From contig CAIRNV010000090.1 in the NCBI GenBank assembly GCA_903880005.1, forward strand, positions 1 through 44,271: a stretch of DNA of 44,271 nucleotides. The letters run 5' to 3'. Under the pieces are notes generated by a model. It searched no databases and was not told where the DNA came from. It worked only from the letters and a program-made list of their open reading frames with translations. The stretch comes from an uncultured Verrucomicrobiota bacterium. Its GTDB lineage: Bacteria; Verrucomicrobiota; Verrucomicrobiia; Limisphaerales; UBA9464. The position numbers and the translations under genes are program-made. Positions 6,803-42,160 of the stretch are shown in pieces (the stretch's first letter is position 1; each line of letters starts with the position of its first letter).

Positions 6803-7581
6803 CACACGCCCCTTGCATCCGCCGGCCATACAAACTTGTGCATCTGCAACTGGAACCGCACCGGCAGGCGGTCCGCGATGACCTGGTCGGCCAGCTCCCG
6901 GCGCGACAAGGGCCGATGCCCCGCCGGCACGCGCTTGAGCGAAGGGTCCTGCTGCGCCCCAGAAAGGGGGGCCACCCACGACACCAGCACGGGGCAACGC
7001 GAGGGCAACGACTCCCGCGCGAGCACGGACTTCATCCACGCGTAGTCCTCCCACGTGCCCACCACGAACTTGACCTCGTCCGTGGCCTTCAAGAGGGCGA
7101 CGTTGGCCCAGCGATTGCGCGCCTCCTCGCCCGAGGACGGGCACTTGAGGTCCATGATGCGTCGCACGCGGGGGTCCAGCACCCCGATGTCATGCGCGCC
7201 CGAGGTCTCGACCAGCACGGTGAATCCCTCGTCGCACAAGGCCGCCATGAGCGCGGCCGCCCGGGGTTGGAGGAGGGGCTCGCCGCCGGTGAATTCCACC
7301 AAGGGCAGCCGATGCACCCCGGATGGCCCATCGGACGCGACCACGCGCGCCCCGGAGCCCGGGCCCATTTCGGCCCCCATTTCGGCCGCGATCCGCCGGA
7401 TCTCATCGTGCACGTCGGCGACCTCCCGGCGGCGTCCCTCGGTGAACGCGTAGGCCGTGTCGCAGTAGGAACACCGCAGGTTGCACGCGGTCAGTCGCAC
7501 GAAGATGCAGGGAAGCCCGGCGAACGTGCTCTCGCCCTGCAAGCTCAGGTACACCTCGTTGACCACCAATGTGCCGCTCAT
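6802..7581 (-). CDS. queE: 7-carboxy-7-deazaguanine synthase QueE (radical SAM)
   Basis: A 259-residue radical SAM enzyme. LVVNEVYLSLQGEST (5-19) is the QueE N-terminus and binds substrate. CNLRCSYCD carries the CX3CX2C cluster ligands C33, C37 and C40, and FTGGEPL (97-103) is the SAM-binding GGE motif. The C-terminal part (VPAGHRPLSRRELAD, VRFQLQMHKFVW) also fits the family. It converts 6-carboxytetrahydropterin to 7-carboxy-7-deazaguanine in preQ0/queuosine synthesis. ATG 7581 overlaps the glgA stop as ATGA. Other queuosine genes are not in the window. A perfect 12-bp tandem duplication (7364-7387) encodes the repeated GAEM in a loop between strands. Confidence 0.93.
   Translation of the reverse strand: MSGTLVVNEVYLSLQGESTFAGLPCIFVRLTACNLRCSYCDTAYAFTEGRRREVADVHDEIRRIAAEMGAEMGPGSGARVVASDGPSGVHRLPLVEFTGGEPLLQPRAAALMAALCDEGFTVLVETSGAHDIGVLDPRVRRIMDLKCPSSGEEARNRWANVALLKATDEVKFVVGTWEDYAWMKSVLARESLPSRCPVLVSWVAPLSGAQQDPSLKRVPAGHRPLSRRELADQVIADRLPVRFQLQMHKFVWPADARGV
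7364..7387. repeat. 12-bp tandem duplication inside queE
   Basis: The 12-mer cccatttcggcc occurs twice head-to-tail with no mismatch. It is in frame and adds four residues (GAEM repeated) to a variable loop of QueE. It looks like a recent replication-slippage duplication. Confidence 0.8.
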
Positions 7582-9032
7582 GGCCCGTGCAAGATCTCCC
7601 CGTACAGGCGGACGTACTCGCGCGCCTGGGTTTCCCAAGAAAAATCGCGGTTCATGCCGTTCAACCGGTAGTGCTCCATGGCCTCGGGGCTTGCGTGCAA
7701 CGCCAAGGCCTTGCGCATCGCCCAGTGCAACGCCGTGACGCTCGCCTCATGGAAGTGGATCCCCGTCGCCGACGCCGCGTCGTCCCGCGCGTCCACCACC
7801 GAGTCAGCAAGCCCGCCCGTCGCGCGAACCACCGGGATCGCACCGTAGCGCAACGAGTACAACTGGTTGAGCCCGCAGGGCTCGAACCGGGAGGGCATCA
7901 CGTAGAAGTCGCTGGCCGCCTCGATGCGATGGGCGAGGCCGGGATCAAATCCAATCCGCGCGGCCACGCGCCCGGGAAACCGTGCGGCCAGGCTGCGAAA
8001 CGAGCGTTCCAGGACGGGATCGCCGCTTCCCAGCAACGCGAACTGCATGCGCTCGCCCGGCAGCATCCGTTCCAACGCCTGCGCCAGGAGATCGCACCCC
8101 TTCTGGTCGGTCAGGCGGCTGACGTTGCCAAACAACGGGACGCTGGCGTCCTCCGCCAACCCCATCTCCCGTTGCAAGGCCGCCTTGTTGAGGGCCTTCC
8201 CGCGCAGGTCGGCGGAGTCATAGGCATGCGGCAGCGCCGGGTTCCGGGTCGTGTTCCATTCGGCGTAGTCCACGCCGTTGAGGATTCCACACAGGTCGTG
8301 CTCGCGCCGGCGCAGCACGCCATCGAGGCCACAGCCGAACTCCGGCGTGCAAATCTCCCGCGCGTAACGGGGGCTCACCGTGCTCAGCGCATCCGCAAGG
8401 CAGAGGCCCGCCTTCAGGAAATTCACCCCGCCACCGTGCGCGGCGCTCTCGAGATGGTACCAGCTCCAAGGCAAGCCCGAGAGCAGCCATGCCTGCGATG
8501 CAAAGCCGCCTTGGTAGGCCAGGTTGTGGATGGTGAACAATGTCCGGGGCGCCCCATGCCATCCCCCGGCAATCCGCGCGTGATGCACCAGCAACGGCAG
8601 CATCCCCACCTGCCAATCATGCGCATGGACCACCTCCACGGGGACCGCCGCATGCCGGGCCACCAGCAAGGCCGCCCGCGCCAGGAACAGGAACCTCGCC
8701 GCGTTGTCCGCGTAGTCGTGCTGCCCCTCGTTGTAGAGACCGGGCCGGTCAAAGAAGGGGTCGTTGCGAACGAACCAAACCTCCATGCCGGACTCCTCGC
8801 GCACCCGCATGAACTCCCCCTCCACCCACTCGCCGCCCAACAGGAGGTCGAATCGCCAGGGCGTGCCCGTCACCGGGCCCATGCGCGACGCCATCCCTCG
8901 GTAGAAGGGCGTCACGACGGTCACCCGGACCCCAGACCGTGCCAGGGCACGGCCGAGCGACCCCACGGCGTCGGCCAACCCCCCTGTCTTGGAATACGGA
9001 TGCAACTCGCTGGCTGCCAGCAGCACGTGCAT
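7578..9032 (-). CDS. glgA: Glycogen/starch synthase GlgA
   Basis: A 484-residue GT5 glycosyltransferase. KTGGLADA (15-22) is the ADP-glucose-binding loop. VVHAHDWQ (134-141) and TIHNLAYQG follow, and the C-terminal Rossmann half has GNVSRLTDQKG and PSRFEPCGLNQLYSLRYG with the conserved acidic residue. This enzyme extends alpha-1,4-glucan from a nucleotide-activated glucose. Length matches bacterial GlgA. It is the first gene of the glgA-queE-aminotransferase-rsmA block, with its stop overlapping the queE start. Other glycogen genes are not present nearby. A 177-base gap holding a repeat element separates it from ispD. Confidence 0.95.
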   Translation of the reverse strand: MHVLLAASELHPYSKTGGLADAVGSLGRALARSGVRVTVVTPFYRGMASRMGPVTGTPWRFDLLLGGEWVEGEFMRVREESGMEVWFVRNDPFFDRPGLYNEGQHDYADNAARFLFLARAALLVARHAAVPVEVVHAHDWQVGMLPLLVHHARIAGGWHGAPRTLFTIHNLAYQGGFASQAWLLSGLPWSWYHLESAAHGGGVNFLKAGLCLADALSTVSPRYAREICTPEFGCGLDGVLRRREHDLCGILNGVDYAEWNTTRNPALPHAYDSADLRGKALNKAALQREMGLAEDASVPLFGNVSRLTDQKGCDLLAQALERMLPGERMQFALLGSGDPVLERSFRSLAARFPGRVAARIGFDPGLAHRIEAASDFYVMPSRFEPCGLNQLYSLRYGAIPVVRATGGLADSVVDARDDAASATGIHFHEASVTALHWAMRKALALHASPEAMEHYRLNGMNRDFSWETQAREYVRLYGEILHGP

Positions 9033-9209
9033 GGGCGCGAGGGTCAGGCCGCGCGTGCGCGGGGCTCAAGGCCTTTCTCCCGGCCCTGCGCCCGTTCCTT
9101 GCCTGCTTGGCCGGGACGATTCAGTTGGATCGGTCGTGCTTGCTCGATCTGCTCGCGCAAATCCTTCGTCGTTCGCTCGTTACGGGCCGCGTAACGGCCC
9201 GCGCCTCGC
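9033..9209. other. Gap between ispD and glgA holding most of repeat copy A
   Basis: The right half of this gap is repeat copy A, which continues into ispD. The remaining bases before glgA include a short perfect palindrome (ccgcgcgtgcgcgg, 9049-9062), about 17 bases upstream of the glgA ATG, which could form a hairpin in the leader. No other gene or clear promoter was seen. Confidence 0.4.
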
Positions 9210-9275
9210 TCACTCCTCGTCTTGCGAAAGAATCTGCTTCGCAATCACTTCCCTCCGAACTGAATCGTCCCGGCC
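9109..9275 (-). repeat. Dispersed 167-bp palindromic-ended repeat, copy A
   Basis: The element is bounded by a perfect 18-bp inverted repeat: GGCCGGGACGATTCAGTT at 9109-9126 and its complement at 9258-9275. The match extends outward with one mismatch (TGCT before, AGCA after). At its exact centre is a 7-bp stem (CGGGCCG 9183-9189, CGGCCCG 9195-9201) with a 5-base loop. The reverse complement aligns gap-free over all 167 bases with copy B at 31051-31217, 142 matches by hand count. Orientation is given as minus relative to copy B. It carries no transposase. Its right 66 bases overlap the 3' end of ispD. A MITE or REP-type element is the best guess. Confidence 0.85.
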
Positions 9276-9947
9276 TAGCAACAGCTCCACGTAGGGCACG
9301 TCCGCGGGCACGGTGACCTTCGGGTTGGGCCAGCGGTCCTCCACGAGCGCCACGTCTTGCCCGATCACCTCGCAGGCCGCCGTGTCGTCCGTCACCGCAA
9401 GCCCGCGTCGTTGAACCTCGGCGAGCGCGCGCCGGATGACGTCCACGCGAAAGCATTGCGGCGTCTGCACCGCCCAGAGGCGGGACCGCTCCAGGTGCCG
9501 TGCGACACGCCCGTGGCCGTTCGATTCCTTGATGGTGTCCGTCACCCGGCAGGCCGCGACCGCCGCCCCCATCGACCGCGCCGCAGCCAACGTCTCGGCC
9601 ACCACCTCGGGACGGGTGCAAGGGCGCGCGCCGTCCTGGATCGCGACCCACTCGACCTCGGCCTGGAGGGCGTTCAGCCCGCTCCAGACGGAATCCTGCC
9701 GCTCGGCGCCTCCGGGTGCCAACCGCCAGGGCTTCGCGGGCCGGACATGGTGCTCGGCCAGCCTGTGGAACTCGTGCTCCATGCCCGGGCGCACCACCAA
9801 CACCACGGTGTCGATGTCGTCCGACGCATCCATCCGCGCCCAGGCATGGGCGACGACGGGACGGCCCAGGACGTCGATGAAGAGCTTGTCCATGCCGGGC
9901 CCCATGCGGGTGCCTCGGCCTGCGGCGACGATGACGGCGGCGGTCAT
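9210..9947 (-). CDS. ispD: 2-C-methyl-D-erythritol 4-phosphate cytidylyltransferase IspD
   Basis: A 245-residue enzyme of the MEP isoprenoid pathway that forms CDP-methylerythritol. AVIVAAGRGTRMG (4-16) with K21 is the CTP-binding loop. AIQDGARP (102-109), VTDTIK (135-140), QTPQCF (161-166), DDTAACE (187-193) and NPKVTVPADV (208-217) are family motifs, the last one marking the usual end of the domain. Residues 225-245 are an extension encoded entirely by repeat copy A, whose edge at 9275 coincides with the first base of codon 225. I chose ATG 9947 because the family begins there; an in-frame start at 9974 would add nine residues. It lies 110 bases after skp. Confidence 0.93.
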   Translation of the reverse strand: MTAAVIVAAGRGTRMGPGMDKLFIDVLGRPVVAHAWARMDASDDIDTVVLVVRPGMEHEFHRLAEHHVRPAKPWRLAPGGAERQDSVWSGLNALQAEVEWVAIQDGARPCTRPEVVAETLAAARSMGAAVAACRVTDTIKESNGHGRVARHLERSRLWAVQTPQCFRVDVIRRALAEVQRRGLAVTDDTAACEVIGQDVALVEDRWPNPKVTVPADVPYVELLLGRDDSVRREVIAKQILSQDEE

Positions 9948-10057
9948 GGGTCCGGGCAACAAAACGCCGGGCACGGCATGGCCGGGCCCGGCTGGCTTGG
10001 TTCAAGAGGCCTGCGTCTGGCCCGCATGCGGGACATGCCCAGGCCCGGTGGTTCTGT

Positions 10058-30351: not shown

Positions 30352-30963
30352 CTACTTCTTGTCCTGCTTGGCCTGCTTCTCGGACTCGGCCTTGAGCTGC
30401 TCCTGCTGGTTGTTCCACTTCTCGATCAGCTCGTTGAACTGCTTGACGGTGGACTCGTGCTGCTTGGCCAGGTCGTTGAACTTGCCCACGATCTGGTTCC
30501 GGTCCTCGACCAGCTTGCTGTAGTCGGACTTGAGCCGCGTGACCCCCTCGTTTTGCTGGCGAATGGCGTCGTTGGCCTTTTGGAGGCCCTCGACGTAGAT
30601 GCTGAGGACCTTGTTGGTCTGTTCCAGGGAGAAGTTGGCGCGTTGAAGGTCCGCACGGAACCGGACGAGCTGCGCATTGTTGGTCTCGGCGCTCTTCATG
30701 AGGTCGGACCGTTCCCGCTCGATGCGCTGGATGTCGTCTTGGAACCGCTTCCCCTGCGCCTCCACGACGGCCTTCTCGTCGTTGAGCTTCTGCCTCTCGC
30801 CCTGCAACTCGTCCACGCGCAGCCGAAGCCGGGTCTCACGCGCCCATTGCACCGCGCACAGGCCACACAAGCCCAGCGCCAGCACAATGAGAATGCCCAC
30901 GCCCACCGAACCCGAGGCGCCACGCGCCACGGCTCTCCGAACCGTTCGTTCCATGGTATCCAT
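30352..30963 (-). CDS. Membrane-anchored coiled-coil protein of unknown function
   Basis: A 203-residue protein with a short basic N-terminus, one membrane helix (VGILIVLALGLCGLCAV, about 22-38) and then a near-continuous charged helix to the end (heptad-like L/I/V spacing, E, K, Q, R rich). A long coiled coil would project into the periplasm, or the cytoplasm if the helix is reversed. No enzyme motif is visible. ATG 30963 is chosen because aaggaag lies nine bases upstream; ATG 30954 is possible. The 351-base gap upstream, ahead of aroC's end, contains repeat copy B. Confidence 0.6.
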   Translation of the reverse strand: MDTMERTVRRAVARGASGSVGVGILIVLALGLCGLCAVQWARETRLRLRVDELQGERQKLNDEKAVVEAQGKRFQDDIQRIERERSDLMKSAETNNAQLVRFRADLQRANFSLEQTNKVLSIYVEGLQKANDAIRQQNEGVTRLKSDYSKLVEDRNQIVGKFNDLAKQHESTVKQFNELIEKWNNQQEQLKAESEKQAKQDKK

Positions 30964-31050: not shown

Positions 31051-31217
31051 GGCCGGGACGATGCCGTTGGGAGGAAAGCGATGGCGGAGCCGATGCTTCC
31101 GCGAGCCGAGGAACGAGCGAAGCGCGGGCCAGTACGAGGCCCTTATCGAGGGAAGGACGAAGGATTTGCGGGAGCAGATCGAGCCAGCACGACCGACCCA
31201 ACTGAATCGTCCCGGCC
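31051..31217 (+). repeat. Dispersed 167-bp palindromic-ended repeat, copy B
   Basis: The right end, AACTGAATCGTCCCGGCC (31200-31217), is identical to that of copy A. The left end differs at 3 of 18 positions. It is exactly the same length as copy A, aligns gap-free to its reverse complement, and shares long identical stretches such as cgaaggatttgcg and gagcagatcgagc. The central hairpin is kept as gggcc/ggccc (31126-31130, 31138-31142) around a 7-base loop, still at the exact midpoint. It sits in non-coding sequence between two minus-strand genes. Confidence 0.85.
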
Positions 31218-31314: not shown

Positions 31315-32415
31315 TCACGCCCCCTTCCATGCCGTCCTCCCACATTGCGCCTCGTGTCGCAGGGCGTGGTCCACCAGGACCAAGGCCGTCATGGCCTCGA
31401 CCATCGGGACCGCCCTGGGCAGCACGCACGGGTCATGCCGGCCGCGGCCCTTCAACGTCGTGTTCTGCAACTGCACATCCACCGTGTCCTGCTCATGCAT
31501 CACCGTCGCCACCGGCTTGAACGCCACCCGGAAGTAGATCGTCTCGCCGTTCGAGATCCCCCCTTGGATCCCCCCGCTGCGATTGGTCACGGTCCGCACC
31601 CTCCCGTCCACGGACCGGAACGCGTCGTTGTGCTGGAGGCCGGTCAAGCCCAGGCCGCCGAAGCCCGAGCCCACGTCAAATCCCTTGCTCGCGGGCAGGC
31701 TCAGCATGGCCTTGGCCAGGTCCGCCTCCAATCGGTCGAACACCGGCTCGCCCCAGCCCGTCGGCACCCCTCGCGCCACGCCCAACACGATGCCACCCAC
31801 GGAATCCCCCTCGCCGCGCCTTCGCTCGATGAGGTCCACCATCCGCGCGGCCGTCTCCGGGTCGGGGCAGCGAATCGCATTGGCCTCCGCGTCCCGGGCC
31901 AGGAAGGTCTCGGGATCCACGGCGCACTCGATGTCCTGCACGCGCGTGACGCATGCCAGCACGTCCACACCCCAGCGCTCCCGCAGGATTTTTCGCGCCA
32001 ACGCACCCGCCGCCACGCGGCCGATCGTCTCCCGCGCGCTCGTCCGCCCGCCCCCGGGCCACGCCCGGTGGCCATACTTGGCCTGGTAGGTGTAGTCCGC
32101 ATGGGATGGCCTGAACTTCGTCGCCATCTCGCCGTAGGCCTCCGGCCGGAAATCCTCGTTGCGCACCATCATGCTGATCGGCGTCCCCAACGTCCGCCCC
32201 TCGAAGACGCCGCTCAGGATGTGCACCGTGTCGGTCTCCTTGCGCGGCGTCGTGATGCTCGACTGGCCCGGCCGGCGCCGGTCGAGGTCCGGTTGGATGT
32301 CCGCCTCCGACAACGCCACGCCCGGGGGGCAACCATCCACGACAACCCCAACGCCGCCGCCATGGCTCTCGCCCCAGGTGGTGATGCGGAACAAATGCCC
32401 AAACGTGTTGCCCAT
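31315..32415 (-). CDS. aroC: Chorismate synthase AroC
   Basis: A 366-residue enzyme that makes chorismate from EPSP using reduced FMN, the last shared step of aromatic synthesis. [18 protein letters not shown] (13-30) is signature 1, [15 protein letters not shown] (44-58) binds substrate and [21 protein letters not shown] (about 129-146) is signature 2, and [12 protein letters not shown] follows near residue 298. Start at ATG 32415 ([19 protein letters not shown]), the usual N-terminus. It diverges from the amidase gene at 32490. Confidence 0.97.
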
Positions 32416-32489
32416 GCGCCTGAGGCATCGTGCCCGCTTTCTAGGAAGGGAAAAAGCGCGGAATCGCGGGCGGCGAGTCCCTGCGACGG

Positions 32490-33524
32490 GTGGACCGGAC
32501 GCTTGCCCTAAGCAGGACCCGCCTCGCATCCTCGCCCCTCGTGGCGAGGTTCATCATTCTGCTTCTCTTGGCCTCATGGGCGGCGCATGCCGCCGGCAGG
32601 CGAATGGCCGCGCCCGGGCCGGCGGCGGTGGACGCACGCTATACCAACCTTGTCGCGTGGGGCCGCCAGCAAGGGCTCCAAGCCTCGGACATCCGGCGCA
32701 ACGGCGAGATGTGGCTCACCAACCAGTCGCTGGCCCTTGGGTTCAAGGCCGACAGCCAGTCGATGACCTTCGATGGCGTCGAGCACCGCCTCACGCTGCC
32801 CGTGCGTCGTTCCCCCGGGGGCTTGCAGGTCGCCGTTCGCGACGTGCAGACGACCTTGTCCCCCCTCCTGCGCCCGCCCCAAAGGCCCGGCAGTCGCCCG
32901 GTGCGCGTCGTCGCCATCAACGCGGGCCACGGCGGCAAGGACCCCGGCAACACCGAGGGACGCCGCCAGGAGAAGCACTACACCCTCCTGGTCGCGGGCG
33001 AGCTCCGCCGCCATCTCGAGCGCGCTGGCCTCCAGGTCGTCGTCGTGCGCCCCTCGGACACCTTCGTCTCGCTCGAAGACCGGCCCGCCAAGGCCGCGCG
33101 CGCCCGGGCCGACCTGTACGTCAGCCTGCACTTCAACGCCTTCGACGGCCCGGGATCGGGCGAGGTCGCCGGCGTCGAGACCTATTGCCTGACGCCGGCC
33201 GGGGCCAGCTCCACCAACGATTCCGGAAACCACGGCGGCTCGTGGCATGCCGGCAATCGCTTCGATCGCGACAACGTCCTCCTCGCCCACCACGTCCACC
33301 GCGCCATCAAGGACGGGACCGACCTCAACGACCGGGGCGTCCGACGCGCTCGCTTCAAGGAGCTGACCCTTCTCCAGATGCCCGGCGTCCTCGTCGAGGG
33401 CGGCTACATGACCCACCCCCAGGATGCCGCGTCCATCTATTCGCCGGCCGGCCGCGCGGCCCTCGCCCGGGGCATCGCCGACGGCGTCCTGGCCTACAAG
33501 CGCCTCGTGGAGCGGAAGCCCTGA
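32490..33524 (+). CDS. N-acetylmuramoyl-L-alanine amidase (Amidase_3) with N-terminal domain
   Basis: A 344-residue exported enzyme that cuts the bond between MurNAc and the stem peptide. A hydrophobic signal ([18 protein letters not shown]) is followed by a beta domain (about 48-128) similar in feel to substrate-binding 'copper amine oxidase N-terminal-like' modules. The amidase domain has zinc ligands H147 (NAGHGGKD), E161 (QEKHYTLL) and H214 (SLHFNA), and catalytic E304 in [11 protein letters not shown]. All key residues are present, so it should be active in the periplasm. Start is GTG at 32490; GTG at 32541 would give a shorter signal peptide and is equally possible. Upstream it diverges from aroC. 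Confidence 0.88.
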
Positions 33525-41898: not shown

Positions 41899-41945
41899 AA
41901 CGAGGGCCTCGCAGGCACGACCGACCCAATGAGAACGTTCCAGAA
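41899..41945 (+). repeat. Right-end fragment of the dispersed repeat
   Basis: Contains GCACGACCGACCCAA (41915-41929), identical to copy B 31187-31201, followed by a decayed version of the terminal repeat (tgagaacgttccag). It lies just upstream of the pseudopilin start. Confidence 0.6.
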
Positions 41946-42015
41946 AAGGCGTGCACCGCAGAAGAGCGCCACAGACGGATGCGGCTTGCACCGAAAAAGA
42001 TGCCTTCCCTGCCGG

Positions 42016-42075
42016 GGCCGGGACGACGCCATCGCGAGCGCAACCATCGCGCAGCGGATTCCCCTGCAAGACGAG
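42016..42075 (+). repeat. Left-end fragment of the dispersed repeat
   Basis: Starts with GGCCGGGACGA, and aligns gap-free over 60 bases with the left end of copy B (42 matches by hand count). It includes gcaagacgag, identical to copy A. The rest of the element is missing. It lies in the 279-base gap between divergent pseudopilin and DUF11 genes. Confidence 0.6.
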
Positions 42076-42160
42076 CGACCCCATGGAGGGGTTCGCTTGG
42101 GAATCCTCACGGCCAATTCGACGCTCGCCTTGCACGCGCCGCGCATGGAAGCCTGACACC

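Follow-up and report, generated by a model that had tools for sequence, protein, structure and literature searches.

The evidence is strong that the 167-bp repeat at positions 31051–31217 is a many-copy non-autonomous transposon (MITE). Its most probable full description, to which we assign a probability of about 0.88, is a MITE which is moved by an IS1380-family transposase, inserts at CTNAG and carries a conserved structured core. We suggest that the transposase would act on the MITE through ends common to both elements and that insertion would take place at CTNAG with duplication of 5 bp, the full length of which we infer. The interior would form a long hairpin, in which a central tandem-G.A helix is capped by a variable stem–loop. 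In other Verrucomicrobiota the same core appears to be combined with different ends, for which other transposases would presumably be responsible. The first-pass annotation had described a dispersed repeat with inverted ends and a central hairpin, which it likened to a MITE or a REP-type element. What goes beyond this description is the interior, which on comparison of sequences appears to be a covarying structure common to more than the 167-bp family.

A high-copy repeat and its probable IS1380 partner

The window, that is the whole stretch of 44,271 nucleotides that was analysed, is contig 90 of the source genome (G000), a 5.02-Mb draft in 492 contigs. It holds two copies of the repeat, copy A (31051–31217, plus strand) and copy B (9109–9275, minus strand), which score 168.4 and 184.1 bits with R1, a covariance model from 29 diverse copies (alignment A1). 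Each is 167 bp long and the gap-free alignment has 142 of 167 positions identical, precisely the earlier hand count; a BLAST search inside the window finds the second copy from the first with E = 1e-55. The perfect 18-bp terminal inverted repeat is found in copy B, where the left (9258–9275, minus strand) and right (9109–9126, plus strand) ends agree at 18/18 positions. In copy A the left end (31051–31068, plus strand) is identical to the right one (31200–31217, minus strand) at only 16/18. The structured core, a tandem-G.A helix with the central hairpin, is located at 31095–31177 on the plus strand in copy A (28.7 bits, E = 3e-5 with the core-only model R3) and at 9149–9232 on the minus strand in copy B (62.8 bits, E = 1.3e-14). 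The flanks of both window copies are decayed. Near 41915–42146 there is also a decayed and rearranged trace of the repeat, in which a right-end piece precedes the left half; with 15.5 bits (R1, E = 0.04) it is too weak for counting as a copy.

Many further copies are present in the source genome. Allowing up to two mismatches, we count 201 + 198 = 399 matches to the 18-base end, compared with 0 + 0 for the reversed pattern. As each element has two ends, this would correspond to about 200 copies. A pattern demanding both ends retrieves 67 elements, BLAST with copy A gives at least 40 near-full-length matches (the best 40 of 569 candidates) and at least 13 further matches which are partial or palindromic shadows, and nhmmer on 70 stretches of the genome gives 123 matches. 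Of 100 nhmmer rows that include both flanks, 95 have the length of 167 bp; reverse-strand shadows of the same copies are among the 100. Of 100 end matches listed, 13 fall no more than 300 nt from the start of a contig, so that the repeat may contribute to the poor assembly of such genomes.

For the analysis of the flanks we retained 70 distinct copies of 167 bp for which both flanks were available, excluding partial copies, reverse-strand shadows (score below 60), copies of other lengths and copies within 20 nt of the end of a stretch. The target site is CTNAG. The left flank has the C in 63/70 and the right flank the G in 62/70 copies, and the central base of CTNAG is equal on both sides in 52/70 copies (23.1 expected, permutation p 0.0005), a test that does not separate a 3-bp from a 5-bp duplication. 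Thirteen of the 70 copies abut the end of another copy. The sequence that flanks the copies otherwise varies, and thus the repeat is not a single duplicated block. The two outcomes that the first-pass annotation had named as fatal to its proposal, an absence of additional copies and copies lying always inside a larger duplicated block, were therefore not observed. Being shorter than 500 bp (its 167 bp leave no space for a transposase gene, and none is encoded, as had been noticed), and with terminal inverted repeats, dispersed copies and a target-site duplication visible at the centre of CTNAG, the repeat has the features of a MITE.

A transposase with the same ends, which the earlier reading had recommended to look for, is present on contig C131. 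The source genome has five matches to DDE_Tnp_1, and the MITE ends lie on both sides of a single one, on C131; among 21 matches to PF01609 in eight genomes the ends again occur as a pair only around this gene. At two other loci (L094 and L109) we noted single end matches with 5 mismatches. The C131 transposase belongs to the IS1380 family (NF033539, 242.4 bits with a cut-off of 180; PF13701 also matches). The IS1380-family IS of the source genome has the ends CCGGAACGATTCAGTTG and the target CTNAG, both as in the MITE. Contig C131 starts inside its left end AACGATTCAGTTGA, and its right end TCAACTGAATCGTTACGGCT is followed by AAG. Contigs C18 and C21 both break off inside this IS, its left end lying at CTAAG, and whole relatives of the IS are flanked by CTGAG/CTGAG in G067 and by CTAAG/CTAAG in G028. 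Homologues of the C131 transposase are found in 37/116 genomes, the source genome included. Unlike the MITE, the IS carries a transposase, and the core is absent from all seven IS1380-bearing loci examined. A BLAST comparison of MITE and IS finds little common sequence beyond the ends. Thus a mere internal deletion of the IS would not give the MITE. From the common ends and target we infer that the MITE is mobilised in trans by the C131 IS1380 transposase.

Three further loci were noted. The IS1380 gene itself has an end-like CAGTTGGATCG in its 3′ end (L096, 1414–1431, on C131), which matches the right end of the MITE over 18 nt (89%, E = 0.015). On contig C31 (L104, 1–610) two MITE copies adjoin a truncated DDE transposase gene at CTAAG, apparently inserted into this gene, and at L111 a copy lies near a DDE (PF01609) match.

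The other half of the earlier proposal, a REP-type element, found no support. High copy number, inverted ends and two Y1-type genes in the source genome could suggest a REPIN that is mobilised by a Y1 tyrosine transposase of the RAYT type. However, both Y1 loci, as far as they were read (2211 bases of L031 and 2827 bases of L032), are devoid of the repeat, and it is an IS1380 element that has the repeat's ends. Y1 enzymes are not known to make a target duplication such as is seen here. We thus give hardly any credence to a REPIN. At L032 (contig C46, 1–2827) the Y1 (RAYT-like) gene is seen by eye to be flanked by several copies of another palindromic repeat rich in GC, and this probably is a separate REP/RAYT system.

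Copy A is intergenic and antisense to both of its neighbours, aroC (31315–32529, minus strand) and a coiled-coil open reading frame (30352–30963, minus strand). Copy B is in sense with its neighbours; it precedes glgA (7578–9032, minus strand) and overlaps the 3′ end of ispD (9210–9974, minus strand; PF01128, 202.1 bits, residues 12–234 of 254), the last 66 nt of which, stop codon included, come from the repeat. At four further loci of the source genome (L059, L064, L073 and L092) the 3′ end of a called gene likewise comes from a copy, always in sense. When the 70 copies are mapped with a rough codon-model gene caller, 65 lie outside called genes (overlap of at most 30 nt), and in the five overlapping ones gene 3′ ends enter the left end of the element, all in sense. 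Both neighbours were called for 37 copies, of which 17 lie in co-directional, 12 in convergent and 8 in divergent gaps. One might argue that the host has recruited the repeats as 3′ stabilisers, terminators or attenuators and retains them for that purpose. The position outside genes and the share of convergent gaps (12/37 copies compared with 4/38 gaps in the window) would fit such a role, yet a sense bias is absent (6 sense and 11 antisense copies in co-directional gaps) and the placement fits simple gene avoidance. Moreover, R1 has no match under strict filters in five drafts of the same genus (G001, G002, G003, G005 and G006); to the extent that drafts and such filters allow a judgement, these genomes can do without the repeat. 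We therefore judge recruitment by the host improbable. In G003 there is one 29-base match outside the R1 search.

The fold of the interior

Across genomes the interior is predicted to fold into one long hairpin with tandem G.A steps at its centre, and the central hairpin seen at first sight is borne out by the fold predicted on aligned copies. In A1, 23 of 44 predicted pairs are changed on both sides, 94.4% of the cells pair compared with 86.6% after shuffling, and both-sided changes occur in 87 cells compared with 29.0 (reached in 0/500 shuffles; 5–14 in slid controls). In A3, which consists of 20 copies picked so as to take in distant ones, 43 of 51 pairs are changed on both sides (152 cells compared with 47.2, 0/500; slid controls 16–41), and in the core alignment A4 22 of 25 (151 cells compared with 51.2, 0/500; slid controls 19–76). 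The shuffles ignore relatedness in all three cases, and the tested structures derive from the very alignments on which covariation was scored. Compensatory changes thus exceed the controls, as demanded for a structured RNA, and as far as aligned sequences can tell this shows that base pairing has been maintained in the lines that spread. Rfam has 0 matches at gathering score in the window and 0 with E ≤ 5 at copy A, and at seven core-bearing loci it gives nothing except a tRNA.

What appear to be internal loops in the core are tandem G.A/A.G steps between short Watson–Crick stretches. The eight G.A columns of A1 hold in 29, 29, 29, 28, 28, 27, 27 and 20 of the 29 copies. They are more variable in A3, with 10 to 19 of 20 copies each. 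One step of A3 has G.A and A.G in 11 and 10 of the 20 copies and C-G and G-C in 7 and 8, and the pair next to the exchanged step is GC in 10/20 and CG in 10/20. Such an exchange of a G.A step for Watson–Crick pairs is what a continuous helix predicts. At the central G.A step of 53 aligned cores, G and A are found in 53/53 each, opposite G in 50/53 and A in 52/53; this alignment was fitted to R3, in which the central-step columns are unpaired.

The plus strand folds better than the minus strand in 70/70 copies of the source genome (mean −91.3 compared with −75.1 kcal/mol). At stem positions that are mostly Watson–Crick we counted G.T against A.C and found 40:14 cells in A1, 45:12 in A3, 29:14 in A4 and 63:24 in the copies of the source genome (36:15 there with another counting criterion). 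Counted as distinct events the ratios are 18:11, 24:9, 14:9 and 16:14, and singletons of the source genome give 8:10. When three event sets were compared with an expectation of 1:1, a departure was seen for A3 (p 0.014) but not for A1 (p 0.26) or the singletons (p 0.81); these p values take no account of relatedness. We cautiously suggest that selection on the plus strand has acted on the lines that spread and little on the resident copies.

Compensatory changes in palindromes can also arise by templated mutation, and quasi-palindromic arm correction is a known mutational process. The hairpin could thus be a by-product of palindromy, template switching having copied arm to arm, and the core could look conserved through youth or kinship of the copies. 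The arms are indeed inverted repeats, and the resident copies with their 16:14 events and 8:10 singletons behave as in neutral decay. However, arm correction would erase mismatches, yet the tandem G.A steps persist, in seven of the eight A1 columns in at least 27/29 copies and at the central step in 50 to 53 of 53 cores. Nor does this process sit well with a G.A step which is swapped for Watson–Crick pairs as a unit next to a pair that is equally often GC and CG, or with a core that is common to elements with unrelated ends (see below). In our view such a by-product is unlikely.

The core could act as RNA or as DNA. The reading that we favour, though only tentatively, is that it acts once transcribed from its plus strand, as a folded segment which makes insertions tolerable or which is recognised by a factor of the host or of the element. 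Tandem G.A steps can form in DNA too, and a single-stranded or extruded plus-strand hairpin could be bound by the transposase or a host factor. The excess of G.T over A.C in shared variants, which is absent from resident singletons, and the lack of a sense bias relative to genes are compatible with a use as DNA. On the other hand, IS1380 transposases are DDE enzymes which act on double-stranded ends and the seven IS1380 loci do without the core; furthermore, the G.T excess fits RNA better, if weakly. We regard a function of the hairpin as DNA as possible but rather doubtful.

Distribution and the core between unrelated ends

With BLAST the 167-bp form is found in 21/116 genomes and with R1 in 66/320 genomes of the order and 34/118 genera, the source genome included each time. 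With two exceptions the R1 matches listed span the full model. An exact core pattern occurs in at least 33 stretches of named GTDB genomes, and those listed are all titled Verrucomicrobia, Verrucomicrobiales, Verrucomicrobiota or Akkermansia. Distant-mode BLAST against plasmids and phages found no match to the repeat, and one exact core pattern gave 0 matches in viral contigs.

A common end of MITE and IS is also seen in G249, a genome of another family, where it is a different one, GCCCAATCCATGCAGT. The MITE there starts with GCCCAATCCATGCAGTAG, and GCCCAATCCATGCAGTTG bounds one IS1380 element on either side. The transposase of that element and the C131 transposase share 42% identity. Another IS1380 element of G249 has different ends. 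The duplicated site in G249 resembles CTNNAG, its two central bases agreeing between the sides in 4/6 copies. At the ends compared, MITE and IS differ by at most one mismatch in 18 in both G000 and G249. When 13 genomes with IS1380-like matches were searched for an IS with the ends of their own MITE, such an IS turned up in G000 and G249 only, 29 of the 37 IS1380-like matches having been read, many of them weak or partial. The IS1380-like genes read in G061, G178, G179, G310, G294, G083, G185, G273, G134, G318 and G023 were devoid of these ends. In the 11 genomes the partner may be lost, unassembled, among the matches outside the 29, or of another family. G052 stands outside the 13, as its tested end was assumed and not seen. 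In G046 MITE-type ends are present in IS fragments. The MITE copies at L037 (G046) and L038 (G023) have closely similar flanks and thus apparently represent an orthologous insertion.

The core reaches beyond the 167-bp form. We searched within Verrucomicrobiota with two further models, R2 from A3 and the core-only R3 from A4. R2 matches 17/387 genomes of the phylum, several by the core only, and R3 finds the core in 95/384 genomes of the class and 63/171 genera; both counts include the source genome, and R3 genomes often have at least 11 core matches. Around the core, three of the genomes matched by R2 have different repeats. In G536 it lies behind CTNAG and AACCTGTTTGGATAAAAAC and in G637 behind CTAG and TGTCCCGCGCGG, with the inverted end on the opposite side in both. 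In G596 three of four places have CTAG and TGTAGTCCGCC, again with the inverted end opposite, and the fourth has G637-like ends. Further ends around R3 cores include GCGGCGGTAAGAAAT, TGCTGTGACGCGG, GCGGTGTAAATAAAT, AACTCTTATCAAAAG, AGCCCGTCTGAAA, GAGCCGGCAACAAAT and TGTACCGTCTCC. These ends adjoin CTNAG, CTAG or variants which differ by one or two bases. A crude end finder reported an inverted pair at 27/30 loci; the pairs at several loci (for example L334, L335 and L339) resemble chance and were not used. A second, inverted core 23–24 nt away is present at 8/42 loci searched (L323, L326, L345, L329, L297, L302, L346 and L340), and the double-core elements with ends found (L323, L329, L340, L345 and L346) span about 279–300 bp.

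As the core is found between unrelated ends, such elements share one core. That a conserved fold is common to MITEs with different ends is, judged from these alignments, well supported, and the other ends are probably served by other transposases. One step further, the core could be a mobile module which rides on several unrelated transposases and whose function, not the ends, is kept by selection; we see an even chance for this. If true, the core, as a fold of RNA or of single-stranded DNA built on a series of tandem G.A steps, would have been paired repeatedly with different ends within the class searched, at CTNAG, CTNNAG and CTAG targets, in elements with one or two inverted cores.

Known relatives and what the core may mean

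The bacterial MITEs Correia/NEMIS, ERIC, RUP, Nezha, Chunjie and QMITE form the general class for comparison. What sets the present element apart from them is a fold with cross-genus covariation, conserved tandem G.A steps and a core between unrelated ends. In the excerpted literature on those MITEs we found no statement of a covarying G.A core between unrelated ends. The closest parallels each differ in some respect. For the CIR repeats of alpha-proteobacteria secondary structure is said to be conserved between species (PMC2229807), as we find here, but according to the excerpts of that paper they are described as a pair of arms plus a linker, with a GANTC site that is exposed. MITEPye1 of Paracoccus yeei is likewise non-autonomous, has ends that match an IS family and can fold as RNA (PMC11578231). 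However, its ends match IS1182, it has 1–3 copies per chromosome and the excerpts describe no conserved core. In Borrelia plasmids stem–loops are linked to IS605 (PMC2775950; the paper contains the word "compensatory"), which again places stem–loops in transposable elements, albeit with another class of transposase. GTAG-tagged REPs are reported in excerpts of PMC3733652 to be enriched in Opitutus terrae. These and the REPIN/RAYT systems are also high-copy palindromic repeats occurring in Verrucomicrobiota, but they depend on another class of transposase. Within the excerpted text of open-licence PMC literature, including PMC3733652, PMC10969869, PMC2229807, PMC11578231 and PMC3542288, we found no description of the element or its core.

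In summary, the ordinary part of our finding is a new MITE, and the unusual part is a conserved structured module which appears to be common to MITEs with different ends. MITEs are commonly regarded as remnants whose ends define them. In our case the ends vary from genome to genome, twice in step with those of an IS, and the interior is kept with compensatory changes across many bacterial families. The finding explains a large family of repeats in these genomes. It also makes testable why a non-coding transposon carries a conserved fold, which may serve transposition, tolerance by the host or a trans-acting RNA.
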